Shown: one piece after another, positions 2,819-19,849 of the stretch
Layout: the number at the start of each line of letters is the position of its first letter
How positions within the stretch are numbered: the stretch's first letter is position 1
Origin: Lichenifustis flavocetrariae
Lineage (GTDB): Bacteria; Pseudomonadota; Alphaproteobacteria; Rhizobiales; Beijerinckiaceae
Assembly (NCBI RefSeq): GCF_026130545.1
Contig: NZ_JAMOIM010000008.1
Coordinates: 1-64,000 of the forward strand
Length of the DNA: 64,000 nt
Direction: 5' to 3'
The notes under the pieces: model-generated
What the model was told of the DNA's origin: nothing
What the model saw: the letters and a program-made list of their open reading frames with translations, nothing else
Database searches by the model: none
Program-made: the position numbers and the translations under genes

Positions 2819-2904
2819 TCCCGGCCCGTGTTGATGCTTGGACACCTCGACACGGCAGAGACGCGGCCGAAAGTGCATCGCTGCTTGCACGCGAGAGATG
2901 CGGG

Positions 2905-2923
2905 ATCGCGGTGTCACCGCGAT
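2905..2923. terminator. Candidate bidirectional terminator hairpin
   Basis: Perfect inverted repeat ATCGCGGTG-T-CACCGCGAT (8-bp stem with a 3-base loop if folded) in the short gap between two convergent genes. There is no strong T-run on either side, so intrinsic termination is plausible but unproven. Confidence 0.45.
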
Positions 2924-2944
2924 GCGAACACCACCTCGGGCGGA

Positions 2945-4396: not shown

Positions 4397-4428
4397 CGAG
4401 AAACTCCGGGGTCGGCTGGGGCCGATGG

Positions 4429-5349
4429 TCAATCGTAGAAGCTACGTGGGGCGTGCTTGACGTTCCGCCACGTGTCGGGGTCGTGCCCGGTCACCACCAT
4501 CGCGCCGGTCTCCTCGGCGATGCGGCGCAGCTTGCGGACCGAGTGGGCAGCGTCGACCGAGGAGCAGACGAGCCCGGGCAGCGCCTTGTCGTTCCAGTGG
4601 TCGAGGGTATAGGCGGCATCGATCGTGAGCAGCACCGGACCCGTGTTGGGGAGGCGCACCAGGAAGGACTGATGGCCGGGCGAATGGCCGGGTGTGAAAA
4701 TCATCCGGATCGCCCCGTCGCCGAACAGGTCGAAGTGATCCGTATATTCGCCGCCGAGGAACTTCCAGGTGAGGTTGGGACGGTCGAAGTCGCGGCGGAT
4801 GTAGGCGCCCTTGGTGAACCAGTCGGGCTTGAACGCATATTCGTGCTCGATCCGCTGCACGACATGGGTGGCGCGCGGGAAGCGGCCGATCGCCCCCGTA
4901 TGATCGAGGTGCAGGTGGGATTGCAGGACGTAGCGCACGTCTTCCGGCTCCACCCCGACGCTGCGGGCCTGGGCCACACAGGTCTCGTCACGGCTCATCA
5001 CCGGCTCGTAGGCGGCCAGCACGTCGCCCCAATGGCCGCGCGCGTCCTCAGCCACCTCCGCCGCATTGCCGCCGTCGATCACCACCGTGCCGAGCGGGTG
5101 CTTGATGAGGAACCAGGGCACCGGAATCTCGTAGTCGCCTTCGCCCTGGTTCATCTTGATGTATTTGAGCTTGGTGCGCAGCGTTCCGGTCTGGAACATG
5201 AAGAGCTGGATGTCGGACGCCGGCCGGGCGGGTGCCTGCATGGCTTGCCGACGCTGCGCGGCCGCAGGAGGCGGCGCGCCGAACTCGACCACCTTGAGCC
5301 GGTCCCGCTCGACGGGGCGGCCATCGTCGCCGAATTCCACGATCTTCAT
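4429..5349 (-). CDS. MBL-fold lactonase, AttM/AiiB (N-acyl homoserine lactonase) family
   Basis: Metallo-beta-lactamase-fold hydrolase of 306 residues. The zinc signature HLHLDH sits at 145-150, followed by TPGHSPGH (His222), Asp244 and a late TGHD near the C-terminus. This pattern is that of AttM/BlcC, AiiB and AhlD lactonases, which open gamma-lactones or acyl homoserine lactones. Because a semialdehyde dehydrogenase follows directly and an IclR gene heads the region, a catabolic gamma-lactone role is more likely than quorum quenching. The N-terminal 45 residues are an oddity: they carry MKIVEFGDDGRPVE and then RLKVVEFGAP, an imperfect internal repeat absent from the core fold, and a similar pair occurs in the C-terminal tail of the transporter ATPase nearby. 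Confidence 0.8.
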   Translation of the reverse strand: MKIVEFGDDGRPVERDRLKVVEFGAPPPAAAQRRQAMQAPARPASDIQLFMFQTGTLRTKLKYIKMNQGEGDYEIPVPWFLIKHPLGTVVIDGGNAAEVAEDARGHWGDVLAAYEPVMSRDETCVAQARSVGVEPEDVRYVLQSHLHLDHTGAIGRFPRATHVVQRIEHEYAFKPDWFTKGAYIRRDFDRPNLTWKFLGGEYTDHFDLFGDGAIRMIFTPGHSPGHQSFLVRLPNTGPVLLTIDAAYTLDHWNDKALPGLVCSSVDAAHSVRKLRRIAEETGAMVVTGHDPDTWRNVKHAPRSFYD

Positions 5350-5373
5350 CGATTCCGTCCTGGCTGTCGCGGC

Positions 5374-6228
5374 TCAGCCGCCCGTCTTCTCGCGGATAAT
5401 GCGGAGCGCTTCCTTGAGGTAGACCCGGAACACCGGATAGTTCTCGCTCATCGGAAAATGGCCGATGTCGGTCATCTCGATGTAGATGCCGCCTTTGATG
5501 CGGCGGGCAGTGTTCTCAGTCACCTCGGGCGGAGTGAGGAAATCATAGGTGCCCGTCATCATCACGACGGGGCAGCGACGCGCATCGATGCGGTCGAGGT
5601 CGCGTCGCAGGTCGTGGTCGACCGAATAGAAGTAGAGATCACCTTTGAAGACTTCCGAGCCCTGCGTGTAGTAGTGCCAAGTCAGCCAGCGATCCATGTC
5701 GGGCGACTGCGGCGCCATCAGGTCCCAGGTGCCGCTGGCGCAGACTTGGGCGGCATTGACGTGCGGATGCCGCCACCAATCGAGGAAGAACCCCGGCGCG
5801 TAGTCAGCGGCCTCGACCGGGATCACGGCACGGAACCGATCGGGATGGCGCATGGCGAGTTGCAGCGCGACGTTGCCGCCGAACGACGAGCCCATGAAGA
5901 TCGGGTTGTCGAGTTCGAGTGCATCGCAGAGCGTGGTGATGAAGTTCACGTAATGGTCGGCCGTGAGCTTGTACTCGGACTTCCACCACTCGACGTTGAG
6001 CGGCGGGTCGGACTTGCCGTGCCGCGCGAGATCGTAGGCGATCACGTTGTAGTCGCGGGTGATCTCCTCGTCCTCGAGCAGGCCGCGCCATTGGTGGTTG
6101 TGGCACCCGGCGGTGTGCTGGCAGACGAGCGGCGTGCCCTTTCCATTGTGAAGGTAGAACACTTTGTACTCGAGGCCGTCGACCTCGATGGTCACATAGC
6201 GACCCGTAACGGGGGAATGGCGAGCCAT
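5374..6228 (-). CDS. Alpha/beta-hydrolase
   Basis: A 284-residue alpha/beta hydrolase. The oxyanion region CQHTAGCHNHQW is near 36-47, DLARHGKSD near 66-74, and the nucleophile elbow GSSFGG places the serine at 115. An aspartate in TGTYDFLTPP and a histidine in IGHFP complete a plausible triad. Start: the ATG at 6228 is chosen over a TTG two codons upstream. The gene lies 24 bases before the lactonase start, in the same leftward operon, so it probably acts upstream of ring opening, for example by releasing a lactone or hydroxyacid from an ester. Family members include esterases, C-C hydrolases and lactonases, so the reaction remains open. Confidence 0.8.
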   Translation of the reverse strand: MARHSPVTGRYVTIEVDGLEYKVFYLHNGKGTPLVCQHTAGCHNHQWRGLLEDEEITRDYNVIAYDLARHGKSDPPLNVEWWKSEYKLTADHYVNFITTLCDALELDNPIFMGSSFGGNVALQLAMRHPDRFRAVIPVEAADYAPGFFLDWWRHPHVNAAQVCASGTWDLMAPQSPDMDRWLTWHYYTQGSEVFKGDLYFYSVDHDLRRDLDRIDARRCPVVMMTGTYDFLTPPEVTENTARRIKGGIYIEMTDIGHFPMSENYPVFRVYLKEALRIIREKTGG

Positions 6229-6274
6229 GGTCAACCTGCGATGGTGGGAACGGCGGGCGGGCGTCCGATGACGG

Positions 6275-6664
6275 TCAGACCGGCACGCCGCACTTGCGGA
6301 GCAGTTCGAACTGAACGGTGAAGTTGCGAAGGTTTTGCATCAGCACCGTGATGTTGCCCTCGATCTTCAGATCCTCGCGGAAGCTCGCGGCCCAGATGCC
6401 ATGGAAGTGTGGCCGGGGCACAGGCTTGCCGAACTCGCGCCAGCTCGCGGCACTCGCCCGCAACGCGAAGTCATAGGCGTCGAGCGGCGCCGGATTGGTG
6501 TTGATGTGTTTCACCTTGCCGTCGTGCATCTCGACGATGACCTTGGCGTCGCCCATGTCGTACATGAATGTGCAGGTGTAATATTTGGCCATCGCCCCGA
6601 TGGTCGCGTCGCTGTCGGTCAACGACTTGAACTTGCCGGCCCAATGTTTCAGGTCCGCGGCCAT
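6275..6664 (-). CDS. Small SCP2-like protein, function unknown
   Basis: A 129-residue soluble protein without signal peptide or membrane helix. The middle (KVIVEMHDGKVKHINTNP) and the end (DLKIEGNITVLMQNLRNF) resemble the strand-turn-helix pattern of SCP2 sterol-carrier-like domains, in which a DGK-type strand precedes a helix closing a hydrophobic pocket. The resemblance is modest. It is the first gene of the leftward operon, 46 bases before the hydrolase gene. If the SCP2 reading is right it may bind or present a hydrophobic lactone or ester to the hydrolase or lactonase; that role is inference only. Confidence 0.6.
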   Translation of the reverse strand: MAADLKHWAGKFKSLTDSDATIGAMAKYYTCTFMYDMGDAKVIVEMHDGKVKHINTNPAPLDAYDFALRASAASWREFGKPVPRPHFHGIWAASFREDLKIEGNITVLMQNLRNFTVQFELLRKCGVPV

Positions 6665-6959: not shown

Positions 6960-7745
6960 ATGAGTCAGTCCCCGCCCGAACGTCAGGTTCCCGCCCTCGT
7001 GCGTGCGCATGCCGTGCTGGATCTCGTAGCGCAGACGCGGACGGCGCTGACCGTGTCCGAACTCGCCCGTTCGCTGGATCTGCCCAAGAGCACGGTGCAC
7101 GGGCTTTGCGCGACGCTGCTTCACCTCGGCCTCCTGGCGCGCCGGGGCGAGACCGGCTTCAAGATCGGCCCGCACGTGATGCGATGGTCGAACGCCTTCG
7201 TGGCGGGCGCGGACATCACGACGGAATTCGCGGCGCTGTGGGACGGCCTCAATGTGCTGCCGGGCGAGACCATCACGCTGTCCACGCTGGAGGGCGCCGA
7301 AGTCGTTTATATCGCGTGTAGAAACAGCAGTTCGCCTCTGGGCGTCAGTTTTCGCGTCGGCATGCGCCTCCCGGCTCCCTTCACGGCCACCGGCAAGGCG
7401 ATCCTCAGCACCATGAGCGAGGGCGCGGTGCGGGGAGCCATGGCGAACCGCTGGCCGGAGCCTCTCACGGGCACAAGCGTGCGCGACATCGACAGCTTTC
7501 TCGTGGAGCTCGAGGATACACGGAAGCGCGGGTTCTCGATCGACAACGGGCAGGTGCGCGACGGCATGTGGTGCTTCGGCACAACGGTGCGTGATGCCGA
7601 GAACCAAGTGATCGCCGGCGTGGCGGTGTCCATGCTGTCGGGCCAGGTGGATCAACTCACGATCGACCTCGTGGCCCGCAACATTCAGCGCATCGCCGAC
7701 CTTTTGTCCGCGCGTCTCGGGGCGGACCTGCAGGCGCACGCCTGA
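6960..7745 (+). CDS. IclR-family transcriptional regulator
   Basis: A 261-residue regulator. The N-terminal winged helix-turn-helix covers about residues 12-75, with SELARSLDLPKSTVHGL as the recognition region. The C-terminal IclR effector domain includes VGMRLPAPFTATGKAIL and GFSIDNGQVRDGMWCFG, both usual family landmarks. It is transcribed away from the hydrolase/lactonase/semialdehyde dehydrogenase operon and toward the transporter operon. Matching inverted repeats lie in front of both, so it is the obvious local regulator, possibly a repressor released by a lactone or hydroxyacid as in the Agrobacterium BlcR (AttJ) case. Ligand and sign of control cannot be read from the sequence. Confidence 0.9.
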   Translation: MSQSPPERQVPALVRAHAVLDLVAQTRTALTVSELARSLDLPKSTVHGLCATLLHLGLLARRGETGFKIGPHVMRWSNAFVAGADITTEFAALWDGLNVLPGETITLSTLEGAEVVYIACRNSSSPLGVSFRVGMRLPAPFTATGKAILSTMSEGAVRGAMANRWPEPLTGTSVRDIDSFLVELEDTRKRGFSIDNGQVRDGMWCFGTTVRDAENQVIAGVAVSMLSGQVDQLTIDLVARNIQRIADLLSARLGADLQAHA

Positions 7746-7898: not shown

Positions 7899-9068
7899 AT
7901 GCGAATCGCCCAATGCGCGCTCGCCTTGAGCGCGGTGCTGAGCCTGTCCGGGGTTGCCGCCGCCGCGGGCCTCGATGACATTGACCCGGCCGTTAAGGAC
8001 CGCCTGTACAATTCCAAGATGCTCGATCCGGCCCAGCCGATCGGGCAGAGCGCCTATGTGAACTGGAAGCCCAAGAAGGGGCCGCCGTGGACCATCGGTT
8101 ATGCGAGCTCCTACGCCGGCAACACCTGGCGGGCCGCCGTGATGCAGGAATTGCAGAACACGATCCTCCCGAAGTGGCAGAAGCTCGGCCTGATCAAGGA
8201 CGTGGTCATCACGCAGTCGAACCTCAACGACTCGACCCAGATCCAGCAGATGCGCCAGCTCGTCGACCAGGGCGTCGACGCCATCGTGGTCTGCTGCTCG
8301 AATCCGACCGCGCTCAACCAGACCGTCAAATACGCCTATGACCATGGCGTGCCGACCTTCTCGCTGACCGGCTACCTGACCTCGCCCTATTCGGTGAACG
8401 CGTCGGTGAACTACCAGCTCGCCGGCTACCAGATTGGCAAGTGGATGGCCGACGAGGTGGGCGGCAAAGGCAACATTCTGGTGGTCGAGGGCATCCCCGG
8501 CACGTCCGGCTCCGACTCGCAGGATCGTGGCGTCAAGGCCGGCCTCGCCAGCGCCCCCGGTATCCAAGTGGTGGGCGACGTGGCCGGCATGTGGACCGAC
8601 CAGGTGGCGCAGGGCGAGGTGCAGAAGTGGCTCGCCACCAATCCTGGCCAGCTCGACGGCATCGTGGTGCAGTCGGCCGCCGAGCTAGGCGTACTCCGGG
8701 CGCTGCAGCAATCCGGCCGCGACATGGTGCCGGTGGCACTCGGCGGCGAACTCGGTGCGCTCTGCTATTGGCGCCAGAACCCGAAGTTCATCAGCGCGGC
8801 CTACCAGGTCTGGCCGCCGGCCGATGAATTCGCGCTGATCTGGAACGTGATGATGCGCACGCTCGAGGGGCAGGGGCCGAAACTCCAGTCCATCATGGTC
8901 GATCCCATCAAGATCAACTACGCTGACGTCGAGAAGGCGCTTCCCGCCGATTGTAACCCCGATGCGGACAGCTGGCTCTCGGTCGGCAATGCCAAATGGG
9001 GCGGCGATCCGGCCTTCCTGGATCAGTTCTTTACAAAGCCGGCCAATCCGGAAGCCTTCAAGCCCTGA
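7899..9068 (+). CDS. Sugar-type ABC transporter periplasmic binding protein
   Basis: A 389-residue exported binding protein of the peripl_BP_4 (RbsB-like) superfamily. A Sec signal peptide with a hydrophobic core (CALALSAVLSLSGVAAAAG) occupies about residues 6-24. The mature part has the type I fold pattern: IGYASSYAGNTWRAAVMQEL, a DQGVDAIVVCC segment, then DRGVKAGLAS and a hinge at DGIVVQSAAELG. It is longer than RbsB (about 270 mature residues) because of an N-terminal lead (DDIDPAVKDRLYNSK) and a C-terminal extension. It heads a rightward operon with its ATPase and permeases, after a candidate IclR site. Neighbouring lactone-catabolic genes make a sugar lactone, polyol or hydroxyacid ligand plausible; the true ligand is unknown. 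Confidence 0.85.
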   Translation: MRIAQCALALSAVLSLSGVAAAAGLDDIDPAVKDRLYNSKMLDPAQPIGQSAYVNWKPKKGPPWTIGYASSYAGNTWRAAVMQELQNTILPKWQKLGLIKDVVITQSNLNDSTQIQQMRQLVDQGVDAIVVCCSNPTALNQTVKYAYDHGVPTFSLTGYLTSPYSVNASVNYQLAGYQIGKWMADEVGGKGNILVVEGIPGTSGSDSQDRGVKAGLASAPGIQVVGDVAGMWTDQVAQGEVQKWLATNPGQLDGIVVQSAAELGVLRALQQSGRDMVPVALGGELGALCYWRQNPKFISAAYQVWPPADEFALIWNVMMRTLEGQGPKLQSIMVDPIKINYADVEKALPADCNPDADSWLSVGNAKWGGDPAFLDQFFTKPANPEAFKP

Positions 9069-9142
9069 GGTCGATCCGGCCGCAGCGGCGGCCGGATCCG
9101 ACAAGGCGCGCTTCGACGACCCCGCCAATCGAGTCTGAGCCC

Positions 9143-10945
9143 ATGCCGTCGGACGCAGCACGGAGCGATCGAGCGCCAGCTACTGGCCCAAGCGGTGCCG
9201 GCAAGCCCGTCAGCATCAGCGTCGTCGGCGTCCGAAAGCATTTCGGCGTCACCCGGGCGCTCGATGGCTGCAACTTCTCCGCCTGCTTCGGCGAGATCCA
9301 TGCGATCGTCGGCGGCAATGGCTGCGGCAAGAGCACACTTGCCAAGATCCTGTCGGGCGTGCTGCCGGCCGATGGCGGTCGCGTCTCGGTCCTCGGCCAC
9401 GCGACGCTGACGCCCTACGAGGCGCGCGGTATCGGTGTCGCCACTGTGTTCCAGGAGGTGCTGGTCGCCGACGAATGCTCCGTCGTCGACAACCTTTTCA
9501 TGGGCTCCGACGGGCTCTTCACCCAGCGCCTGTCAGGCGCCGCCAAGCTGCGCGCCGCCGATGCGCTGATGCGAGACCTCGCCGGCGAGCGGGTCGACGT
9601 CCAGGCACTCGCCGGCACCTTGCCGCTCAATCTCAAGCAGTGGATCACCATCGGCCGCGCGCTGTTGCGCAACCCGCGCATCCTCATCCTCGATGAATCC
9701 TCGGCGGCGCTGGACCTCGACTCGACCGAGCGGCTGTTCGCCAAGATGCGCGCTCTGCGCGACGGTGGCGCGACCGTGCTGATCGTCACGCATCGGATCG
9801 CCGAACTGATCCGCATCAGCGATCGGGCGACCGTGCTGCGCGACGGGCGCGACGTGGGTGTCCTGGAAAAGTCTGAGATCACCGAGCACAACCTGTTGTC
9901 GCTGATGACCGGTAGGTCCGACCACGCCAAGCCGGTGTCCTCCGCCTCCGTCGAGGATGCGCTGCACGGCGAGGTGGTGCTGCGGACCCGAGGCCTGCGG
10001 ATCTGGCCCGAAAGCCCATCGCTCGACGTCGACCTGCACCGGGGCGAGATCCTCGGCGTCGCGGGGCTCGACGGCCAAGGGCAGAGCGAGTTCGTGCGCA
10101 TCCTGGCCGGGGTCCAGGCCGCGGCGGCGGGCCATCCGGAGGTGCGCACCGGCGACGGTCGCTTCGCGGCGATCCACGGGCTCGCGGAGGCGACCGGCCA
10201 CGGCGTGTCCTACGTTTCGGGAGACCGCAAGCGAGAGGGTATCTTCGCCAATCTCAGCATCTTCGAGAACATGCTGATGCCGCTCTACCGGCTCAAGGCG
10301 CGCGCCGGCAAGATCGCGACCATCGACTGGAAGGCGCTCGACGCCACCTTCGCCTACGAGGTCGACAACCTGCTCATCAAGATGGGGGCGCGCACCAATA
10401 AGATCACCTCGCTGTCGGGCGGCAATCAGCAGAAGGTGCTGATCGGCCGGGGCTTCGCCATGAACCCGGACATCATGGTGCTGAACGATCCCGCGCGCGG
10501 GATCGACGTCGGTGCCAAGGCCGAACTCTACCGACACTTGTCCGCCTTCGCGGCGCAGGGCCGCGCGGTCGTCTATATGTCGAGCGAGATCGAGGAATTC
10601 GTCGGCTTCTGCAGCCGCGTCATCGTGTTCCGCAACGGTGGCGCCTTCGATGCCTTCCGCGGCTCCGCGCTCGACCCCGCCGTGATCCTCGCCGCCATGT
10701 TCGGCCAGACCGATGGGCGGGGAACGCGGCTGCTGACGTCGAGCCAAGCCACGGCGGCCGCCACCACGGTCGGCCCGATCAAGATCCGCGAATTCGCGCC
10801 CACGGTTCGGCGAAGCGCCGCCGCCACCGCTGAAGGGCCCCGTTTCGGCACGGCCGACCGCGACAGCCGGCCGGCGATCAGGATCGTCGAATTCCAGGAC
10901 GGCCACCCGGTCGAGATCGGCCCCACGGACGGGGGCCAGCGATGA
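9143..10945 (+). CDS. Two-domain sugar ABC transporter ATPase (RbsA/MglA type) with unusual C-terminal tail
   Basis: A 600-residue tandem ATPase. Domain 1 has Walker A GGNGCGKST and Walker B ILILDESSAALD, but the usual LSxxxQQ signature is replaced by LPLNLKQWITIGRALL. Domain 2 has the degenerate Walker A GLDGQGQSEF (no lysine), a canonical signature LSGGNQQKVLIGRG and NDPARGIDVGAK, as is normal for the family. After the second domain an extra tail of about 70 residues carries IKIREFAP (546-553) and IRIVEFQDGHPVE (579-591), resembling the lactonase N-terminus. The ATG at 9143 is chosen because the longer frame overlaps the binding-protein gene. The stop overlaps the next start in ATGA fashion, implying coupled translation with the permease. 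Confidence 0.9.
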   Translation: MPSDAARSDRAPATGPSGAGKPVSISVVGVRKHFGVTRALDGCNFSACFGEIHAIVGGNGCGKSTLAKILSGVLPADGGRVSVLGHATLTPYEARGIGVATVFQEVLVADECSVVDNLFMGSDGLFTQRLSGAAKLRAADALMRDLAGERVDVQALAGTLPLNLKQWITIGRALLRNPRILILDESSAALDLDSTERLFAKMRALRDGGATVLIVTHRIAELIRISDRATVLRDGRDVGVLEKSEITEHNLLSLMTGRSDHAKPVSSASVEDALHGEVVLRTRGLRIWPESPSLDVDLHRGEILGVAGLDGQGQSEFVRILAGVQAAAAGHPEVRTGDGRFAAIHGLAEATGHGVSYVSGDRKREGIFANLSIFENMLMPLYRLKARAGKIATIDWKALDATFAYEVDNLLIKMGARTNKITSLSGGNQQKVLIGRGFAMNPDIMVLNDPARGIDVGAKAELYRHLSAFAAQGRAVVYMSSEIEEFVGFCSRVIVFRNGGAFDAFRGSALDPAVILAAMFGQTDGRGTRLLTSSQATAAATTVGPIKIREFAPTVRRSAAATAEGPRFGTADRDSRPAIRIVEFQDGHPVEIGPTDGGQR

Positions 10946-12327
10946 GCGCCGTCGCGCGCGATGCCGCCGAGGCCGACCCGATCGCTCCCAGCGGATCGAG
11001 CAGCACTTACCTGCTGGTGCCGATCACGCTGTTCTTCGCGCTGCTCTTCGTCGCCGTGCTGCGCAGTCCGCGCCTCGTCACCGTGTCGGGGCTCGGCAGC
11101 GCCATCATCGTCGCGGTGCCGCTCGTGCTCGCCACCTATGCCCTGATGGCCTCCACCATCGCGGGGCGCGGCACGGTCGATCTCTCGGTCGGTCCGCTGA
11201 TCGGTTTCATCAACGTCACGCTGATCCAGATCCATGGCGCCGGTGGACTGCAATCCGAGGCCGCCTTCATCCTCTACGCGCTCGCGAGCGGCGTCGCCTA
11301 TCAGGTTCTAATGGCGCTCATCGTCATCTTTGTGCGCGTGCAGCCCATCATCGTCGCGCTCAGCGGCTATCTCGCGCTGTCCGGCATCAACCTCGTCATC
11401 CTGCCGCGCCCCGGCGGCACCGCGCCCGAATGGATGTCGACCTGGGGCGCCGGCACCGAGGTGCTCTCGCCAGTCCTGGTCATCCTGCTGATCGCCACCG
11501 CCGGATGGCTGATCTTCACCCAGACGGCCTTCTACGGGCATTTGCGGCTGATGGGATCGGACGAGCGCGCCGCCTATACGAGTGGCGTCCGCATCACGGT
11601 GGTGCGGATCGGCGCCCATGCCATCTCGGGCCTGTTTGCCGGCCTGTCGGCCATCTGCTTCACCGCGCTGATCAGTTCGGGCGACCCCAACCAAGGCACG
11701 ACCTATACGCTGATCGCCGTGACGGCGCTGGTGCTCGGCGGCGCGAGTCTCGCAGGCGGACGGGGCGGCGTCGTGGGCTCCCTGCTCGGGGCCGTCAACA
11801 TCTACCTCATCACCTATGTGCTCGCGACCTTCAACTTCGGCGCGGTGCAGAGCTTCGTGACCGACCTGGCCTACGGGACCATCCTGGTGCTGTCGCTGAT
11901 GATCACGGTCGCGCTGCCGTTCCTGCAAAGGCACCTGCGCTTCGTGTCGCCGCTTCTCTACTTCGTGGTGCTCTCCGTGCTGACGCTCGGCGTCATCCTG
12001 CATGCCGGCTTCGATTACGCCCATCTCGCGCCGATGCCGCGGGCGGCGGGTTCCAATCCCGATGTCTTCATCTTCGAGGCTCCGGGGACCTACGCCGAAG
12101 CCGCGCAGGGCTCCCGTCTCGCCAAGCCCATCGTCTTCGCCCTCCTGGTCGTGATCGGCCTGACCGGATCGCTGCGCCTGCTCGTGCAGCGCAAGCGCCC
12201 GCTCAGCCTGTCGCCCGTGGTGTTCCTGCTCGCGGCCGGGCTGGTGCTGCTCGGCATCTACGCGATCAAGAATCCCCAACGCCTTGGCCACCTGCTCGGA
12301 CCAGCCGGCATAGAGCGCGCCTCATGA
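10942..12327 (+). CDS. Sugar ABC transporter permease (RbsC family), C-terminally extended
   Basis: An integral membrane protein of 461 residues. The first 330 or so match RbsC/BPD_transp_2 permeases: many hydrophobic helices, the AGRGTVDLSVGPLIGF segment and the cytoplasmic coupling region ALVLGGASLAGGRGGVVGSLLGA. Typical members end near 330 residues. Here about 120 more follow, predicted as a helix (SPLLYFVVLSVLTLGVILHAG), an exported loop and two more helices. It overlaps both neighbours by four bases, so it is part of a tightly coupled transporter operon. It probably forms a heterodimeric channel with the next permease. The added helices might dock the operon's extra membrane proteins; that is speculation. 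Confidence 0.9.
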   Translation: MSAVARDAAEADPIAPSGSSSTYLLVPITLFFALLFVAVLRSPRLVTVSGLGSAIIVAVPLVLATYALMASTIAGRGTVDLSVGPLIGFINVTLIQIHGAGGLQSEAAFILYALASGVAYQVLMALIVIFVRVQPIIVALSGYLALSGINLVILPRPGGTAPEWMSTWGAGTEVLSPVLVILLIATAGWLIFTQTAFYGHLRLMGSDERAAYTSGVRITVVRIGAHAISGLFAGLSAICFTALISSGDPNQGTTYTLIAVTALVLGGASLAGGRGGVVGSLLGAVNIYLITYVLATFNFGAVQSFVTDLAYGTILVLSLMITVALPFLQRHLRFVSPLLYFVVLSVLTLGVILHAGFDYAHLAPMPRAAGSNPDVFIFEAPGTYAEAAQGSRLAKPIVFALLVVIGLTGSLRLLVQRKRPLSLSPVVFLLAAGLVLLGIYAIKNPQRLGHLLGPAGIERAS

Positions 12328-13724
12328 GCATCGAGGCAGGATTCCGCCCCGTGGAACCGCCACTCGCACGATGGATCGGCTTCCTGCTGGCCGCGGCAGT
12401 GGCGGGGCTCGGCATCGGGTTCGGCATCTACCAGGGATTGCCGGCCCAGGAGATCATCCTTTTCGGGGTCGCGACCTTCGCGCTAGTGGCGTGGGGCGTC
12501 CGTTTCTATACTGCACGCGCACCGATCGACGTGGTGCGCCCCGAAGAGAACGCCCCAATCGCCCCGGCGCGGACTGCGGGCGGCGACCTGCGGATCTTCA
12601 TCGGCAGGAACCGGCTCCTGCTCGGGACTGCCCTGGCGCTCATCATCGCCTTCGCGATCGCGTCCTTCACCGTCACCGGCTTCTTCACGGTCGTCACCGT
12701 GATCTCGGCCCTGGTGCTGCTCGGCCTGCTCATCCTGGCCATGACGGTGAGCAAGTTCGTCGTCGACAACCGCAGCGCTTTCGTCGGCATCGTGGTGCTC
12801 GTCGGCCTCTTCGTCATCGGCGCCATCAACATCCGCGGCTTCTCGTCGGCCTTCAACATCAAATCGATGCTGCTGTTCGCCTCGTTCCTGGGCCTCGCCT
12901 GCGTCGGCCAGACGCTCGTGGCGCTCCTTGGGGGCCTCGATCTCTCCATCCCCTTCGTGATCGGATCGGCCAACGTTGGATTGCTCTACATCATCGGTCT
13001 CGGCACACCGCCATGGCTCGCCGTCATTCTCATCATCGCCCTCGGAACGCTGATCGGCACGATTAACGGCGCGCTCAGTTTCAGGCTGCAGGGCCAGGCC
13101 CTTATCCTCACGCTCGGCACGGGCTTCGCGGTGTCCGGGTCGACGCAGATTATCACCAGCATCGGCTCGTCTTTCGCCGGCAACGTCTTCGGCACCGTTC
13201 CGCCCTGGCTCAAGAACCTCGCCGCCATGAACGGCTCGACCTTCGGGCTCAAATTTCCCCCCGCCATCCTGATCTGGGTCGTGGTGTCGGTCCTGCTGAT
13301 CGTCGGGCTCCGCAACACCGTCTACGGCCGCTACCTCTACGCTCTCGGCGGCAACCGGACCTCGGCGGCGCGGCTGTCGATCTCGGAGCGGAAATACTGG
13401 ATCAGCGTCTATGCGATCAGCGGCGGCGTCTCGGCCCTGACCGGCTGTCTGCTGCTCGGCTGGAGCGGTGGCGGCTTCATCGGCGTGGGCCAGCCCTACC
13501 TGTTCATGACCCTCGCGGCCGTGGTGGTCGGCGGAACCTCGCTGCTGGGCGGCGCCGGCGGCTACGGCTTCACGGTGATCGGCGTGCTGGTCCTGCAGGT
13601 TCTGACCTCCTTTCTGGTCGGCATGGGCCTCAAGTTCGAGTGGCAGCAGTTCATCTTCGGCCTGCTGATCCTGCCCATGGTGGCGCTCTACGCGCGCTCG
13701 CCGCACGTGCGCTCGCAGATCTGA
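12324..13724 (+). CDS. Sugar ABC transporter permease (RbsC family), N-terminally extended
   Basis: A 466-residue permease. The ATG is embedded in the previous stop (ATGA), which sets the start; the frame is open far upstream but that part is shadow. The first 130 residues add two helix-rich segments separated by a polar linker (RPEENAPIAPARTAGGD) before the family core. The core shows GQTLVALLGGLDLSIPFVIG and VVVGGTSLLGGAGGYGF, the standard RbsC landmarks. With the preceding gene it makes a two-permease system, whereas ribose-type transporters often use one permease twice. The N-terminal extension mirrors the C-terminal extension of its partner. Confidence 0.9.
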   Translation: MSIEAGFRPVEPPLARWIGFLLAAAVAGLGIGFGIYQGLPAQEIILFGVATFALVAWGVRFYTARAPIDVVRPEENAPIAPARTAGGDLRIFIGRNRLLLGTALALIIAFAIASFTVTGFFTVVTVISALVLLGLLILAMTVSKFVVDNRSAFVGIVVLVGLFVIGAINIRGFSSAFNIKSMLLFASFLGLACVGQTLVALLGGLDLSIPFVIGSANVGLLYIIGLGTPPWLAVILIIALGTLIGTINGALSFRLQGQALILTLGTGFAVSGSTQIITSIGSSFAGNVFGTVPPWLKNLAAMNGSTFGLKFPPAILIWVVVSVLLIVGLRNTVYGRYLYALGGNRTSAARLSISERKYWISVYAISGGVSALTGCLLLGWSGGGFIGVGQPYLFMTLAAVVVGGTSLLGGAGGYGFTVIGVLVLQVLTSFLVGMGLKFEWQQFIFGLLILPMVALYARSPHVRSQI

Positions 13725-13772: not shown

Positions 13773-14495
13773 GTGAACGGCACAGTTCTTCAAGCGACCG
13801 ACGTGGCGGGTGGCACCTTCTCGGTCGCGCTCTTCGGCCTGATCGCGGAAGCCGTCCTGCTGCTGCTGGCGACCGGCTGGGTGGCCCGCGCCTGGAAGCT
13901 GCCGGTCGCCCTGTCGGCTGTCGTGGCGCTCGTGGCGGCCTTCGGTACGCTGCAGGCGCGCGACGTGTGGCTCGCGACCCATCAGATTCCAATCTCCTAT
14001 CAATACGTCGGCTGGGCGGTGACGATGCCGCTCCAGGTGCTCACCTTCTTCTTCTTCGTCGCCACGCTCGCGACGCCACCGGCGGCGCTGTTCTGGCGCC
14101 TGCTCGTCGTCAGCATCCTGATGGTTGTGGTGCGCTACATGGGCGAGGCGGGCTTCACCCATGCCGCGCTCAGCTTCCTGATCGGCATCGTCGGCTGGCT
14201 CTACATTCTGGGCGAACTGTTCTTCGGACGACTCAACGAGATCGTCGCCAACAGCCATGACGAGCCGGTCCAGCGTGGCTACTTCTGGATGCGCCTGATC
14301 GTGACGATCGGCTGGGCCATCTATCCGCTCTGCAACTTCATCGCCGGCTTCGGCGGCGGCGTGGGGGGCGGCAGCCTCGCGATTACCTACAACCTGGCCG
14401 ACTTCGTGAACCGGATCGCCTTCGGGCTCGCGGTTCTCGCCACCGCCATGCTGAAGACGGACGCGGCACCGCGACCGCAACAATCCCGCTTCTGA
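13773..14495 (+). CDS. Type-1 opsin (proteorhodopsin)-like membrane protein lacking the retinal lysine
   Basis: A 240-residue, seven-helix protein that aligns by eye with proteorhodopsin along its length: RYMGEAG (121-127), FLIGIVGWLYILGELF (135-150), GWAIYP (180-185) and YNLADFVNRIAFGL (206-219). In proteorhodopsin the last segment carries the Schiff-base lysine (K231); here that position is Arg214, while the preceding Asp210 is kept. Other pump residues are also gone: the H75 position is Gly58, R94 is Gln77, the D97 counterion is Gly80, the E108 donor is Thr91. It therefore cannot form the normal retinal Schiff base. A class of opsin-like proteins without this lysine is known in bacteria. 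The GTG start follows a GGGGAG ribosome site. It lies between transporter permease and flotillin genes, hinting at a membrane-assembly or sensing role. Confidence 0.88.
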   Translation: MNGTVLQATDVAGGTFSVALFGLIAEAVLLLLATGWVARAWKLPVALSAVVALVAAFGTLQARDVWLATHQIPISYQYVGWAVTMPLQVLTFFFFVATLATPPAALFWRLLVVSILMVVVRYMGEAGFTHAALSFLIGIVGWLYILGELFFGRLNEIVANSHDEPVQRGYFWMRLIVTIGWAIYPLCNFIAGFGGGVGGGSLAITYNLADFVNRIAFGLAVLATAMLKTDAAPRPQQSRF

Positions 14496-14556: not shown

Positions 14557-16275
14557 ATGAACGGCGCAGACATCATCGCCATCATGATCCTGATTGCGAT
14601 CATCATCGCGGTCCTGGCCTATCTGCTGCACTGGCTCTACCGCCGCTCGTCCAAGGACGTGTCCTTTGTGCGCACAGGCCTGGGCGGCGAGAAGGTGGTG
14701 ATGGGCGGCGGCGCCCTGGTGCTGCCCATCGTGCATGACGTGACGGACGTCAGCATGAACACGCTCCGCCTCGAAGTGCATCGCGCCCGGGAGAAGTCGC
14801 TGATCACCAAGGACCGCATGCGCATCGAACTCCAGGTGGAGTTCTATGTGCGGGTGATCCCGTCGGCCGAGGCGGTTGCGGCGGCGGCCCGCACCCTCGG
14901 CAACCGCACCATGAATCCCGAAAGCCTGCGCGATCTTGTGCAAGGCCGTTTCGTCGACGCCATGGGCGCGGTCGCGGCCTCCATGACGTTGGAGCAGATC
15001 CACGAACACCGTTCGGACTACATCCGCGACGTGAAGGCCCAAGTGGCCAATTCCATGACGCAGAACGGTTTGGAACTCGAGACCGCGTCGCTGACCAACC
15101 TCGACCAGGCCGACATGAAGCTCTTCAACCCGTCGAATGCCTTCGACGCGGAGGGCCTGACGCGGCTGACTGAGGAGATCGAAAGCCGCCGCAAGAAGCG
15201 CAACGATATCGAGCAGGACACGATGATCGCCGTGCGCAAGAAGAACCTCGAGGCCGAGCGCCTGGCCCTCGATATCCAGCGCGAGAGCGAATATGCGCGC
15301 CTCGAACAGGAACGCGAGGTCGCGCTGCGGCGCGCCCAGCAGCGGGCCGAGATAGCCCGCGAGAAGGTCCTGCGCGACCGAGAGGTCGAGGAGGCCGAGA
15401 TCCAGGCCCGGGAGGACATCGAGAAAGCGCGCATCGGTCAGGACCGGGCGATCGACGCCGAACGCATCGCCCGCGAACTCGACCTTGAGCGCCTGGAGAT
15501 CCAGCGCCAGAAGGCGCGGCAGATCGAGGAACAGGAGAGCGTCATCGCGGTGGCGCAGAAGTCGAAGGAGCAATCCGAGGCGCAGCAGGCCGCCGAGGGC
15601 GCGCGAGCCTTGATGATCGAGGCCCAGGAAAACGTCACCACCGTGCGCGACAGGGCCATCGCCGAGCGCCGCAAGCAGATCGACATCATCGTGGCCAGCC
15701 AGGAGGCCGAGCGCGAGGCGGTGAAAATCAAAGTGCGGGCGGAAGCCGAACGGCATGCCGCGACCGATCGCGCGGAAGCGGATCGCATCGAGGTCGCGGC
15801 CCTCGAGCGGCGCTTCGCCGTTGAGGCGGAGGGCAAGCGCAAGGCCAACGAGGCGGAAAACCTCCGCTCCGACGCGAGCCGCCGCAGCGCCCTGCATGTG
15901 CGCCTGATCGAGAACCTGCCGTCGATCATCCGGGAAAGCGTGAAACCGATGGAGCAGATCGAATCCATTCGCATCCTGCATGTCGAAGGACTGCCGGGCT
16001 TGTCTGGACCGGGGACGCAAGGCCCTGTCGGCTCCGGCGGGGACAAGGGCGGGACGGGTGACGATGCCGCCCGCGCACCCAACCTCGCCGAAAGCGTCGT
16101 CAACTCGGCCCTTCGCTACCGCGCCCAGGCTCCGTTCGTCGACACATTGCTGAACGAGATCGGCATGTCGCCGGCCTCCATCGGCATGGATGGGCTGGGA
16201 GGCCTCGGCAAGACCGAATATACGCCCGTGAAGGACGAGGCCGGCAAGCCCTCCAAGCTGCTCGAAACCAAGTGA
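14557..16275 (+). CDS. Flotillin-family (YqiK-like) membrane scaffold protein
   Basis: A 572-residue protein with one N-terminal membrane anchor (IIAIMILIAIIIAVLAYLLH, about 5-24). An SPFH/band-7 domain follows, recognisable from VRTGLGGEKVVMGGGALVLP and the ITKDRMRIELQVEFYVRV strand. A very long charged coiled coil rich in Glu, Arg and Ala runs from about 210 to 440, then a Gly-rich linker and a conserved tail. This architecture is that of bacterial flotillins and YqiK, which oligomerise at the membrane and organise microdomains. YqiK genes usually sit beside an NfeD-type protein (YqiJ), but none is present; the small four-helix protein downstream may take that place. The position inside a transporter operon is unusual and suggests a scaffold dedicated to these membrane proteins. 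Confidence 0.88.
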   Translation: MNGADIIAIMILIAIIIAVLAYLLHWLYRRSSKDVSFVRTGLGGEKVVMGGGALVLPIVHDVTDVSMNTLRLEVHRAREKSLITKDRMRIELQVEFYVRVIPSAEAVAAAARTLGNRTMNPESLRDLVQGRFVDAMGAVAASMTLEQIHEHRSDYIRDVKAQVANSMTQNGLELETASLTNLDQADMKLFNPSNAFDAEGLTRLTEEIESRRKKRNDIEQDTMIAVRKKNLEAERLALDIQRESEYARLEQEREVALRRAQQRAEIAREKVLRDREVEEAEIQAREDIEKARIGQDRAIDAERIARELDLERLEIQRQKARQIEEQESVIAVAQKSKEQSEAQQAAEGARALMIEAQENVTTVRDRAIAERRKQIDIIVASQEAEREAVKIKVRAEAERHAATDRAEADRIEVAALERRFAVEAEGKRKANEAENLRSDASRRSALHVRLIENLPSIIRESVKPMEQIESIRILHVEGLPGLSGPGTQGPVGSGGDKGGTGDDAARAPNLAESVVNSALRYRAQAPFVDTLLNEIGMSPASIGMDGLGGLGKTEYTPVKDEAGKPSKLLETK

Positions 16276-16282
16276 CGGCGCG

Positions 16283-16702
16283 GTGAGCGGCATGGTCAAC
16301 CCCATGAGCATCGAAAGCCGATTTGCCGTCATGACGAATTGGAGCCTCTTTGCTCCGTTCGGCGCCGGCTTCGTGCTGTCCGGATTCCGCGTCGCGGACC
16401 TGACGCTCGGCCTGTTCGGCTTCGCGCTTCTGGCGGCCGGCACTGTGTCCCACCTCGTGATCAACCGGGTCTACGGCATTGAATTCAGCGACGGACAGAT
16501 CGCGGTCGCGGCCGGGCTCTTCCTCGTGGCCCTGCTCGGCTTCCTGGCGAGTTGGATCGCCGCGCCCGCCTTCGCGCCCGCCAACGTCCTGCTCGGCCTC
16601 GCCGGCACCGCGATAGTGATCGCCGGGGCCTTCGCGTATGTGGCGACCCGCTATGGCCTGCGCGGCGCCTTCTCGATGTTCCACGCCAGGCGCCCGACCT
16701 GA
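16283..16702 (+). CDS. Small four-helix membrane protein, function unknown
   Basis: A 139-residue protein with about four hydrophobic segments (LFAPFGAGFVLSGFRV, LTLGLFGFALLAAGTVSHLVI, IAVAAGLFLVALLGFLASWI, LLGLAGTAIVIAGAFAYVAT) and short loops. No family is recognised. The GTG start is used here because it follows an AAGTGACGG-like site eight bases after the flotillin stop; an in-frame ATG three codons later is equally possible. It is sandwiched between the flotillin and symporter genes on the same strand with minimal gaps, so it is very likely co-transcribed. It may be a partner of the flotillin, by analogy with small membrane partners of YqiK. Confidence 0.65.
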   Translation: MSGMVNPMSIESRFAVMTNWSLFAPFGAGFVLSGFRVADLTLGLFGFALLAAGTVSHLVINRVYGIEFSDGQIAVAAGLFLVALLGFLASWIAAPAFAPANVLLGLAGTAIVIAGAFAYVATRYGLRGAFSMFHARRPT

Positions 16703-16762
16703 CATGATGCGCCTGCCTACCCGCGACGCGTGCAGCGGCCCGCCCTTCCGCCAAGGCCGACA

Positions 16763-18709
16763 ATGTCCGAAGCGCTGATCTGGCTCGTGGCGGCCCTGGC
16801 CTTGTCGAGCGCCTACTGGCTCTATTGCGGCGTAGCCTGCGCGCGATCGGCCGAAAGCCCCAGGAGCTTCTTCCTGGCCGACCGCGATCTGCCGGCCTGG
16901 ATGTTCGTTCTCGTCGCCACGGGTGCGAGCTTCCCGGCTTGGATCGTGCTCGGGCACGCTGCGCTCGTCGCCAGCGGCGGCCTCGCCTTCGCCGAAACCG
17001 CGCTCTGCGCCATCACGATCCCTCTCGCAGGAGTGTTGTTCCTCAAGCGGCAGTGGATGCTCGGCAAGCGCTATGGCTATGTGACGCCCGCCGAGATGCT
17101 GGGGGATTATTTCGGGGGCGAGGGGATCCGCCTCTGCACGGTGCTGATCGCCGTCGTCTTCGCCGTTCCCTTCATGGGAACACAGATGAGGGCGGCTGCG
17201 GACCTCCTCGCGGCCGTGTCGGGCGGCGCCGTCGATCCGATCCTTGCCCTTTGGGGAGTGACGGGGCTCGTCTTCGCTTACACCTGCGTGGGTGGGCTGC
17301 GGGCGGCTGCTGTCGCGGGCGCCTCGCAGAGCCTGCTGCTGGCGGCTGGCGCGATCATGATCGGGGTTCTCGCTCTCGCTGGCGGATTCGCGGACTTGGC
17401 GGGCGGCCTGGGCCAACAGGCCGGCGCGGGCGCGCCCACCGTTTCCGCGCCGCCGCTCGGCATTCCCGGCGTCATCCAATTCGTGCGCGGCCTGGGCGTT
17501 GAGCCGCCGCTCGGCAGTCCGTGGACGGCCACGATGATCTTCAGCTACTGCATCAGCCTGATGGGCCTGCAGCTTGCGCCGGCCTTCGGGTTGCTGGCTT
17601 TCGCGACGCGCAGCCCCAAGGGCTTTGTGGCCCAGCAGACCTGGGCTGCGGCCGGGGCCGCAGGGGTGCTGCTCGTGGTTGCCATTACGGCCGCCGGTTT
17701 GAGCCGGCACGGCGCCTCGACGAGCGATCCCGTGGCGAGGCTGATCGGGGGGCTGGCCGGGGCGGCTCCCTGGTTCGTCGGCATCCTTGCCGTCGCGATG
17801 CTGGCCGGTGCCCAAGTGTTCGCGTCACTCAACTTGTCGGCCGCCTCCACCATCCTGGTGCGCGACGTCTATCGCCGCTACCTCGATCCCGAGCTCGACG
17901 TCGCCGGCCAGCGCCGCGCCGCGCGGATCACCATGGGGCTGCTGGCCTTGGCGGCCCTGCTGCTCGCCACCTTCGCGCCGGCCGCCGAGCGGGCGCTCGC
18001 CGCGCTGGCCCTGGGGTTCGGCCTCCAACTCCTCCCGGCGCTTGCGGGCTTGTGCTGGCTGCGCTGGCTGACCCGGGAGGGCGTCGTGGTCGGGCTCGTG
18101 GCCGGCCTCGTCGCCGTGATCTTCACTGAGCCGCTGGGGGGAGCGGTGGCCGGCTTCTTCGGCATCCATCTGCCTTGGGGCCGCTGGCCCTGGACCCTGC
18201 ATTCCGGCGCCTGGGGCCTCGGGATCAACGCCGCCGCCTGTCTCGTCATCTCGTTGATCAGCCAGCGCGCGCGCGAGCACACACGACGGTCGGCGTTTCA
18301 TGTGTTTCTGACCGCCTTCGCGGGGCGGCCCCGATCGGGCCGCGCGCTCCGGCCGCTCGCCTGGGCCCTGACGCTCGCCTGGATGTTCTTCGCCATCGGG
18401 CCGGGCGCCATTTATGGCAACAGCGCATTCGGTGACGGCTCGGCCTCGGCCGGCGCCCTCGCGACCGGCCTGCCGTCGCTATGGATCTGGCAGATCGTCT
18501 GGTGGGCGCTCGGCGTGCTGCTGATCTGGTTCCTGGCCCATCGCATGGCCCTGTCGACACGCCCGGTCCGCCCCATCGAGCCGCTGCCCCGCTCGCAACG
18601 TCCACGCTCGGACGTGGCCGCGCTGGCGCCTGGCGAGAGTCAGCGCTGGGCTCTGATCGCGATCGGCCTCGCAGGTCTCGCCATCCTGGCCAACTGGCTC
18701 TTCGACTGA
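16763..18709 (+). CDS. Sodium:solute symporter (SSS/SLC5) family protein
   Basis: A 648-residue membrane protein with about 13-15 hydrophobic helices. It has the SSS-type start (SFFLADRDLPAWMFVLVATGASFPAWIVLG), the TPAEMLGDYFGG segment typical of LeuT-fold solute:sodium symporters, VFAYTCVGGLRAAAVAG, and a late GAQVFASLNLSAASTILVRDVYRRY loop matching the family. The ATG at 16763 starts just before the first helix; an upstream start adds eleven Pro/Arg-rich residues. A second uptake system in an operon that already contains a full ABC transporter is notable. It could import the hydroxyacid or carboxylate product, or be coupled to sensing. Substrate cannot be told from sequence. Confidence 0.85.
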   Translation: MSEALIWLVAALALSSAYWLYCGVACARSAESPRSFFLADRDLPAWMFVLVATGASFPAWIVLGHAALVASGGLAFAETALCAITIPLAGVLFLKRQWMLGKRYGYVTPAEMLGDYFGGEGIRLCTVLIAVVFAVPFMGTQMRAAADLLAAVSGGAVDPILALWGVTGLVFAYTCVGGLRAAAVAGASQSLLLAAGAIMIGVLALAGGFADLAGGLGQQAGAGAPTVSAPPLGIPGVIQFVRGLGVEPPLGSPWTATMIFSYCISLMGLQLAPAFGLLAFATRSPKGFVAQQTWAAAGAAGVLLVVAITAAGLSRHGASTSDPVARLIGGLAGAAPWFVGILAVAMLAGAQVFASLNLSAASTILVRDVYRRYLDPELDVAGQRRAARITMGLLALAALLLATFAPAAERALAALALGFGLQLLPALAGLCWLRWLTREGVVVGLVAGLVAVIFTEPLGGAVAGFFGIHLPWGRWPWTLHSGAWGLGINAAACLVISLISQRAREHTRRSAFHVFLTAFAGRPRSGRALRPLAWALTLAWMFFAIGPGAIYGNSAFGDGSASAGALATGLPSLWIWQIVWWALGVLLIWFLAHRMALSTRPVRPIEPLPRSQRPRSDVAALAPGESQRWALIAIGLAGLAILANWLFD

Positions 18710-18721
18710 AAGGAACCCGCC

Positions 18722-19849
18722 ATGCAGATCAAGGCCGCGCTTCTGCGCCAAACCGGACTGGCGCATCCCTACCGTGACACGCGCCCGCTCGCGATCGAGA
18801 AAGTCGCCCTGGCCGGCCCCGGCCGCGGCGAGGTGCTGATCCGCATGAAGGCGGCCGGACTGTGCCATTCGGATCTCTCTGTCATCGACGGGAGCCGGCC
18901 GCGGCCCATGCCGATGGTGCTCGGCCACGAGGCGGCCGGGATCGTGGTCGAAGTCGGCCCGGATGTCTCCGACCTCGCGGTGGACGACCACGTGGTCCTG
19001 GTCTTCATTCCGAGCTGCGGCCAGTGCCTGCCTTGCGCGACCGGCCGGCCCGCCCTGTGTGAACCCGGCGCCAAGGCCAATGGCGCGGGCACGCTGCTGC
19101 GCGGCGACCGCCGCCTGTCCTTGTCCTGCGACGCCGTCAACCACCACATCGGGGTCTCGGCCTTCGCCGACCACGCCGTCGTGTCGCGGGAATCCTGCGT
19201 CAAAGTCGACAAATCCCTGGCCTTCGACCATGCGGCACTGTTCGGCTGCGCGGTGCTCACGGGGGTCGGGGCCGTGGTCAACACCGCCAAGGTCCCGGCC
19301 GGGGCCTCGGTGGCGGTCGCGGGCCTCGGGGGCGTGGGCCTCAGCGCGATCCTCGGCGCCGTCGCCTGCGGCGCGCGCCAGATCATCGCGGTCGACCTTT
19401 CGGAGGAGAAGCTTGCCTTCGCCCGGCAACTGGGAGCCACCCACACGGTGAATGCCGGGACACCAGACGCCGTTGCCGCCATCAAGGATCTGTCAGGTGG
19501 GGGCGTCGAGTTCTTCTTCGAGATGGCGGGGGCGGTTCCGGCGCTCGAACTCGCCTATGCGGCCACGGCGCGCGGCGGCACGACGGTCACGGCCGGCCTG
19601 CCGCATCCCGACCGCAAGCTGTCCATCCAGGCCGTCAGCCTCGTGGCCGAGGAGCGGACCCTGAAAGGGTCCTATATCGGTTCCTGCGTGCCCCGGCGCG
19701 ACCTGCCGCACTATGTGGCGCTCTTCCAAAACGGCCGCCTCCCGGTCGATCGCCTCCTGACCCACAGGCTAAAGCTCGACGAGATCAACGAAGGCTTCGA
19801 CCGCCTCCACGATGGCTCGGCGATCCGACAGGTCGTGCTCTTCGATTGA
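18722..19849 (+). CDS. Zinc-dependent alcohol dehydrogenase
   Basis: A 375-residue medium-chain dehydrogenase. Catalytic-zinc residues are visible in AAGLCHSDLS (Cys near 43) and GHEAAG (His near 65). The structural-zinc loop CGQCLPCATGRPALC gives four cysteines, and the NAD-binding motif VAGLGGVGLS is near 199-208. It starts with ATG after a GAAAGGA ribosome site, 12 bases behind the symporter gene, and closes the operon. It is most similar in style to class III/aryl-alcohol type enzymes. In context it could oxidise a hydroxyacid to the semialdehyde that the nearby GabD-like enzyme uses, the role filled by BlcB in Agrobacterium (a different family). That functional link is inference. Confidence 0.88.
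   Translation: MQIKAALLRQTGLAHPYRDTRPLAIEKVALAGPGRGEVLIRMKAAGLCHSDLSVIDGSRPRPMPMVLGHEAAGIVVEVGPDVSDLAVDDHVVLVFIPSCGQCLPCATGRPALCEPGAKANGAGTLLRGDRRLSLSCDAVNHHIGVSAFADHAVVSRESCVKVDKSLAFDHAALFGCAVLTGVGAVVNTAKVPAGASVAVAGLGGVGLSAILGAVACGARQIIAVDLSEEKLAFARQLGATHTVNAGTPDAVAAIKDLSGGGVEFFFEMAGAVPALELAYAATARGGTTVTAGLPHPDRKLSIQAVSLVAEERTLKGSYIGSCVPRRDLPHYVALFQNGRLPVDRLLTHRLKLDEINEGFDRLHDGSAIRQVVLFD

Follow-up and report, generated by a model that had tools for sequence, protein, structure and literature searches.

A lysine-less flotillin-associated rhodopsin in a conserved ABC importer and flotillin gene cluster, and a terminal motif shared by unrelated proteins of the cluster

The window, a 64,000-nucleotide stretch of Lichenifustis flavocetrariae DNA (contig NZ_JAMOIM010000008.1), contained a rhodopsin-like gene within a cluster of transport and metabolic genes. 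The minus strand encoded a succinate-semialdehyde dehydrogenase (2945..4432; TIGR01780 at 687 bits, cut-off 646), an AttM-family lactonase (4429..5349; NF045700 at 441 bits, cut-off 390), an alpha/beta hydrolase resembling PcaD (5374..6234; under cut-off) and a strongly conserved 129-aa SCP2-like protein (6275..6664). The plus strand encoded an IclR-family regulator (6960..7745), a periplasmic binding protein (Peripla_BP_4; 7899..9068), an ABC ATPase of the sugar-importer type (9131..10945; start chosen within the longer ORF 8996-10945), and two BPD_transp_2 permeases, permease 1 (10942..12327) and permease 2 (12318..13724; start chosen within the longer ORF 11430-13724). These were followed on the same strand by the opsin (13773..14495), a flotillin (14557..16275; Flot 1.4e-33, Band_7 7.2e-14), a 139-aa protein (16283..16702), a sodium:solute symporter (SSF; 16730..18709) and a zinc alcohol dehydrogenase (18722..19849). 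The regulator, binding protein, permeases, symporter and alcohol dehydrogenase were assigned from profile matches. The SCP2 match of the 129-aa protein was weak (E 0.05; 14.3 bits, under the 21.3 cut-off), as was its predicted structure (pLDDT 66.6), for which the best fold match was also SCP2 (E 0.18). The 139-aa protein matched no family in the profile search, and was kept in these clusters at 27-43% identity between clusters. Upstream of the cluster, a ChrR-type cupin protein was encoded at 1480-2079 on the plus strand (PF12973, 5.1e-18).

The opsin gene was an open frame of 240 aa with a GTG start, separated from its neighbors by 48 and 61 bases, the latter being the distance to the flotillin. 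Residues 18-225 matched the Pfam Bac_rhodopsin profile (1.1e-17; 64.7 bits, cut-off 24.6). In alignment with the solved proteorhodopsin 4jq6, the Schiff-base lysine was replaced by Arg214, the counterion Asp by Gly80, the donor Glu by Thr91, the conserved His by Gly58 and the Arg by Gln77, while Asp210 was retained. The coordinates and residue assignments of an earlier note on this DNA were thus correct. A lysine aligned at the Schiff-base site had been named beforehand as the result that would overturn that note, and the alignment placed none there. Displacement of the lysine through misalignment was ruled out, helix G being gap-free (YNLADFVNR against YNLADLINK in 4jq6).

The structure predicted from a 27-sequence alignment consisted of seven long helices (mean pLDDT 89.5), and its top solved folds were the flotillin-associated rhodopsin PsFAR (9r23 and 9r21, TM 0.89) and proteorhodopsins. 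Together with the profile match, this upheld the proteorhodopsin-like fold first proposed from the sequence. The nearest PDB sequence was likewise PsFAR (9e-50), with 4jq6 at 1.3e-39. The window protein is almost certainly a lysine-less flotillin-associated rhodopsin (FArhodopsin). Seven related-locus pairs (six lysine-less, one lysine-bearing) gave opsin dN/dS values of 0.05-0.19, with dS reaching 1.7 in the widest pairs; the range of the neighboring genes was similar, indicating living genes and ruling out a pseudogene. The opsin cannot hold retinal by a Schiff-base bond in the customary position, and its gene is maintained by purifying selection.

The gene order around the opsin was conserved. 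In each of the distinct loci (33/33) the opsin was flanked on the same strand by permease 2, as the closest homologue ahead of it, and by flotillin, as the closest one behind it, which ruled out a chance neighborhood and confirmed that the opsin is tied to transporter and flotillin genes. Homologues never adjoining such genes had been the second outcome named as overturning the note, and these loci showed the reverse. Symporter homologues were found in 33 of these loci, binding-protein homologues in 28 and homologues of the 129-aa protein in 29; the misses of the latter two fell at cut contigs or locus edges. The opsin thus lies in a conserved cluster with an ABC importer, flotillin, 139-aa protein, symporter, SCP2-like protein and hydrolase. 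A sequence identical to another locus (L060, the same as L037) was excluded from the residue and gene-order counts and retained in the motif counts, and one locus (L046; cut contig, one TAG) was excluded from all counts.

The converse comparison began from flotillin. A match below 1e-199 was found in 10 of 397 genomes of the order, nine of them among the genomes with an opsin match; in the tenth (G334) the contig stopped about 80 bases from the flotillin start. Flotillins of the clusters with Leu or Lys at the Schiff-base site scored weaker, so this comparison covers the Arg type. At 1e-20, any flotillin match occurred in 96 of the 397 genomes, and no opsin lay beside the two more distant flotillins that were read (L144, L145). 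In the Pelagibacterales clusters read, the opsin, flotillin, 129-aa protein, hydrolase and symporter were retained, the homologues of the 129-aa protein and hydrolase at 72-82%. No binding-protein or permease match was obtained in these clusters at E 1e-4, and nothing matching the importer genes was seen.

The residue table comprised 49 distinct opsins: 31 lysine-less, seven lysine-bearing FArhodopsins and 11 proteorhodopsins. Judged by their residues, loci L043, L045, L047-L050 and L071-L130 were ordinary proteorhodopsins and had been set aside. Position 121 was Arg in 31/31 lysine-less opsins, Gly in 11/11 proteorhodopsins and Glu, Ala or Gln in 7/7 lysine-bearing FArhodopsins. It aligned with Glu120 of PsFAR, which the depositors of that structure had mutated to Gly in the double mutant H84V/E120G named in a structure title, probably to reopen the retinal pocket. 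The counterion Asp80 was missing from 30 of the 31 lysine-less opsins and retained in that of Tistlia (L052). Position 210 was Asp or Glu in 49/49 opsins. Position 214 of the lysine-less opsins was Arg in 22, Leu in six, Gln in two and Glu in one. A rule of neutral core charge over positions 77, 80, 210 and 214 was dropped because it was broken by L061 (R-A-D-E) and L064 (P-G-E-L).

In a tree of 48 rows, which left out L038 (unread bases) and whose root was not fixed, every lysine-less opsin fell on one side of a branch with 100/100 support. The 11 proteorhodopsins formed a 100/99 group, and the lysine-bearing FArhodopsins joined these and not the lysine-less rows (100/100). Many separate lysine losses are unneeded, as the tree, its root not being fixed, allows one loss followed by change among Arg, Leu, Gln and Glu.

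These positions bear on a ligand-binding role, the main rival of a dark scaffold or regulator. The old retinal cavity would bind an amphipathic carboxylate through Arg121 and Arg214, for example a hydroxy-acid from the lactonase or a fatty acid, and signal to the permease or flotillin. The invariance of Arg121 among the lysine-less opsins and of an acid at position 210 agrees with such a site. Precedents come from retinal-free proteoopsin, which binds decanoate with its carboxylate paired with the Schiff-base lysine (PMC11322631, available in part), and from haloarchaeal opsins with arginine at that site, which have chemotaxis transducers as neighbors and for which a sensory role other than light detection was proposed in the accessible part of PMC4915679. 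However, position 214 was Leu, Gln or Glu in 9/31 lysine-less opsins, so that a conserved acid site at this position does not hold for the group as a whole, and no transducer gene was recognized next to the window opsin. Ligand sensing, with either candidate ligand, is considered rather unlikely.

The scan of named genomes was read from its best 80 listed loci, of which 60 were ordinary proteorhodopsins and 20 (L051-L070) were FArhodopsin-like by residues; 19 of these 20 were lysine-less, and L070 had the lysine. Hosts among the 20 included Tistlia consotensis, Metarhizobium album, Rhizobium terricola, Pararhizobium antarcticum and Roseovarius litoreus, along with Rhizobacter and Oxalobacteraceae MAGs. 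Within the order of the window organism, 27 of 397 genomes matched the opsin at 1e-15, a good part of them with ordinary proteorhodopsins.

Exactly one rhodopsin per genome was found in 33/33 FArhodopsin genomes (31 lysine-less, two with lysine; several genomes incomplete), and the window's own genome gave a single Bac_rhodopsin match. PF15461, the beta-carotene dioxygenase family that includes retinal synthase, had no match in 32 of these 33 genomes, whereas the same search matched it in 14 of 20 genomes with ordinary proteorhodopsins. The sole match among the 33 was a fragment in the window's own genome covering 110 of 267 positions. It was a 162-aa frame at 62-550 on the minus strand of a 3,662-base contig (C18; L131), adjoining another sugar-type ABC importer. 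This fragment was read as a remnant, and retinal production by the window organism through this family was rejected. In a congener of the window organism, a further locus (L008/L133, 9109-9795) encoded a pump-like rhodopsin with lysine, Asp and Glu at the key sites, with no FAR cluster genes beside it.

For marine FArhodopsins it has been proposed that the opsin associates with a proteorhodopsin inside flotillin rafts and adjusts its activity, the marine genomes in the portion of PMC10308929 available having always carried a pump. With one rhodopsin in 33/33 genomes (some incomplete) and no PF15461 in 32/33, such help to a light pump is very improbable here. A light pump or pump helper was rejected for these genomes, in keeping with the earlier reading of the protein as something other than a light pump: the window genome holds one lysine-less opsin and no second rhodopsin.

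The dehydrogenase (2945-4432) and lactonase (4429-5349) genes lie on the minus strand beside the importer, and both products scored over curated cut-offs. The IclR family, to which the window regulator belongs, also contains BlcR. According to the part of PMC5924552 available, the BlcC (AttM) enzyme of Agrobacterium is the one that opens gamma-butyrolactone, and the blcABC route yields succinic semialdehyde. An AttM lactonase scoring above cut-off (399.7 bits) was also encoded in one Pelagibacterales cluster. In L041, both caprolactamase subunits, over curated cut-offs, were encoded at 1797-5892 on the plus strand, upstream of the permeases of a lysine-bearing FArhodopsin. The opening of cyclic esters or amides is the likely theme of the cluster. 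Against the sugar ABC equivalog models the importer scored far under cut-off throughout. The association with a lactone/sugar regulon claimed in the earlier note is backed for the lactone by the AttM-family lactonase over cut-off, and for the sugar comes from ABC family resemblance under cut-offs.

A motif, [KR]I[VI][ED]F[DG], recurred near the ends of unrelated cluster proteins, namely lactonases, ABC-ATPase tails and a carboxyltransferase. The window lactonase began MKIVEFGDDG, followed by LKVVEFG, both within a 45-residue N-terminal extension preceding the family model, and the C-terminal tail of the window ATPase contained KIREF and RIVEF. The tally covered 34 loci, with the sequence of L037 present twice. 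Of the 31 readable ATPase tails, 25 carried the motif, as did 21 of 21 AttM-type lactonases of at least 62% identity, one duplicate locus being counted in each. It also occurred in both distant metallo-lactonases, those of L052 (best model AhlS, under cut-off) and L059, at 26-27% identity, and in neither of the lactonases of L041 and L070. The ATPase tails of L052 and L059 were untagged. In 24 of the 25 tagged ATPase tails, which spanned 65 to 174 residues, a motif copy began 14-25 residues from the end.

At least one tag was carried by 26/26 loci whose 129-aa protein was more than 60% identical and by 0/4 loci with a diverged one (28-30%), a contrast confounded by descent. In the Leu-type clusters (L040, L042, L044, L068), no motif was found in the ATPase tails and no lactonase was matched, with opsin, flotillin and ABC genes present; the tag is therefore not a requirement for all opsins of this type. 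ATPase tails of the Leu-type clusters were long, in L042, L044 and L068 as well as in L040, where the tail of 14736-16925 (minus strand) was a phosphatidylethanolamine-binding domain (PF01161), in the place occupied by the tag in other clusters. In the Pelagibacterales, a 374-aa frame with KIKI[VI]DFDK near its C-terminus occurred in 3/3 clusters read that far. The one such frame scanned was a PxpC-like carboxyltransferase (CT_A_B; TIGR00724 over cut-off, the match ending at residue 315). The start of the Pelagibacterales AttM lactonase (L178) was without the motif. Between the ATPase and permease of L070, a 116-aa frame (5632-5982, plus strand) consisted mostly of the motif, in four strict copies.

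Among 297 genomes of the order there were 23 AttM matches, tagged in 9/9 with a FAR-type cluster and in 0/14 elsewhere; the opsin was seen in eight of the nine cluster genomes, and in G334 the flotillin lies where a contig ends. When the DNA of 16 whole genomes was searched for MKI[IV]EF, there were nine matches, each 4-9 kb from the opsin, and none with the pattern read backwards; eight lay at lactonase starts, one inside the L070 repeat protein and none elsewhere. Terminal motif matches numbered 60 in 521 kb of FAR loci (26/27 loci) and four in 1036 kb of proteorhodopsin loci (3/60), counted on mechanical ORFs with base composition not matched.

The motif may be something other than a docking tag, arising by chance or inheritance, through copying of tails inside the cluster or as beta-strand-like ends that have no partner. 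Most of the tagged ATPase tails and AttM lactonases compared are mutual orthologues, so their motifs are not independent events. A looser pattern searched in 397 genomes gave 14 matches in 13 genomes, 10 of them FAR lactonases and four outside the clusters, with two for the backwards control. The four lay inside a 538-aa frame (L219), about 38 residues before the end of a 108-aa frame (L211), at the start of a 42-aa frame (L213) and outside any frame of at least 40 aa (L221). Against this explanation, the motif occurs on the unrelated AttM lactonase, distant metallo-lactonase (L052, L059), ABC ATPase, PxpC-like carboxyltransferase and 116-aa repeat protein. In the AttM and carboxyltransferase proteins it is part of an extension not covered by the family model, and its distance from the end of 24 of the 25 tagged ATPase tails stays within 14-25 residues despite their range of lengths. 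An origin without a docking function is doubtful.

The preferred reading, given a probability of roughly 0.45, is that the opsin serves, independently of light, as a membrane subunit in a module for lactone uptake that is scaffolded by flotillin and equipped with docking tags. The flotillin would organize a membrane patch, and the opsin would act in the dark as an assembly or regulatory subunit tying the ABC permease to it. Ring-shaped esters similar to gamma-butyrolactone would be imported at the patch, opened by the lactonase and passed via the semialdehyde towards succinate. The motif that the lactonase has at its N-terminus and the ATPase in its C-terminal tail would be a docking tag holding the soluble parts at the patch, with the 129-aa SCP2-like protein as its favored receptor or hub. 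Arg121 and, in most members, Arg214 would fill the former retinal site. The absence of importer matches and the untagged L178 lactonase in the Pelagibacterales mean that a permease-flotillin tether cannot be a universal role.

More tentatively, FArhodopsin clusters might build a membrane metabolon with its own addressing peptide, the tag docking enzymes and the importer motor on a patch of opsin, flotillin and SCP2-like protein, with a rhodopsin fold turned scaffold. The tag carriers would then be the lactonases, ABC ATPases, biotin-carboxyltransferase and repeat protein.

FArhodopsins are widespread. In the named strains with a lysine-less opsin as the only rhodopsin, the confounding pump is gone and the question of their function is open to plain gene deletion. 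The terminal motif is a concrete handle on what the flotillin-opsin patch assembles. If the proposal is true, a microbial rhodopsin fold has been reused as a light-free scaffold, and the motif is a new kind of bacterial enzyme-docking tag. As far as the searches show, the lysine-less members in pump-free named strains (Tistlia, Metarhizobium, Rhizobium, Pararhizobium, Roseovarius) are new, as are Arg121, the permease-opsin-flotillin order, the ABC-lactonase setting and, most notably, the terminal motif. A literature search for the motif strings, or for flotillin, rhodopsin, lactonase and ABC transporter together, returned nothing relevant. No paper on the PsFAR structures was found in a search covering few subscription papers and no preprints.

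The class to which the opsin of the earlier note belongs had been published in 2023, lysine-less members with arginine included (PMC10308929, here and below as far as accessible), and the opsin beside flotillin is therefore not new. The note had called the association with a lactone/sugar regulon undescribed, and the available text of that paper contains no word beginning with "lacton". FArhodopsins were described there in SAR11, HIMB59 and Pseudothioglobus. Most freshwater relatives were without the lysine, having Gln, Thr, Leu or Arg instead, and were adjoined by flotillin whenever the contig was long enough; a second rhodopsin in the freshwater hosts could not be judged, and FArhodopsins were proposed to complement a pump (PMC10308929). 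The marine cluster included a sterol-carrier-like protein, inner membrane translocator, sodium symporter, alpha/beta hydrolases and iron-dependent alcohol dehydrogenases (PMC10308929). As in FArhodopsins and PsFAR, the window opsin has a proteorhodopsin-family fold and flotillin as the next gene on the same strand, and as in FArhodopsin clusters the window has a sodium symporter, alpha/beta hydrolase and sterol-carrier-like protein (SCP2 match weak). In contrast to the marine FArhodopsins, it has Gly80-Thr84-Thr91 and not DTT, DTL or DNI, the freshwater members being more diverse (PMC10308929). It also differs from the FArhodopsins of that source in having Arg121 instead of Glu, Ala or Gln, an ABC importer directly upstream, a tagged lactonase, and hosts that are named strains with large genomes, not single cells or metagenomes (PMC10308929). 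Unlike the marine genomes, the window genome is without a pump proteorhodopsin.

Rh-noK, another microbial rhodopsin, was reportedly the subject of work by Yamauchi in 2019. As described in the accessible part of PMC10308929, it shares the missing lysine with the window opsin, but is related to xanthorhodopsin and has a functional rhodopsin in tandem with it. The window opsin is nearest to PsFAR and proteorhodopsins, with no second rhodopsin. The haloarchaeal opsin-related proteins of group A are similar in the replacement of lysine by arginine and in the light-independent role proposed for them; however, all but one of 16 adjoin chemotaxis transducers, whereas the window opsin adjoins a permease and flotillin (PMC4915679, in the part available). 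With blcABC (attKLM) of Agrobacterium, the window shares an AttM/BlcC-family lactonase, a semialdehyde dehydrogenase and a repressor gene (PMC5924552). In contrast to that operon, for which the available part of PMC5924552 mentions no opsin, flotillin or SCP2-like protein, the window has a zinc alcohol dehydrogenase and a lactonase with a tagged N-terminal extension.
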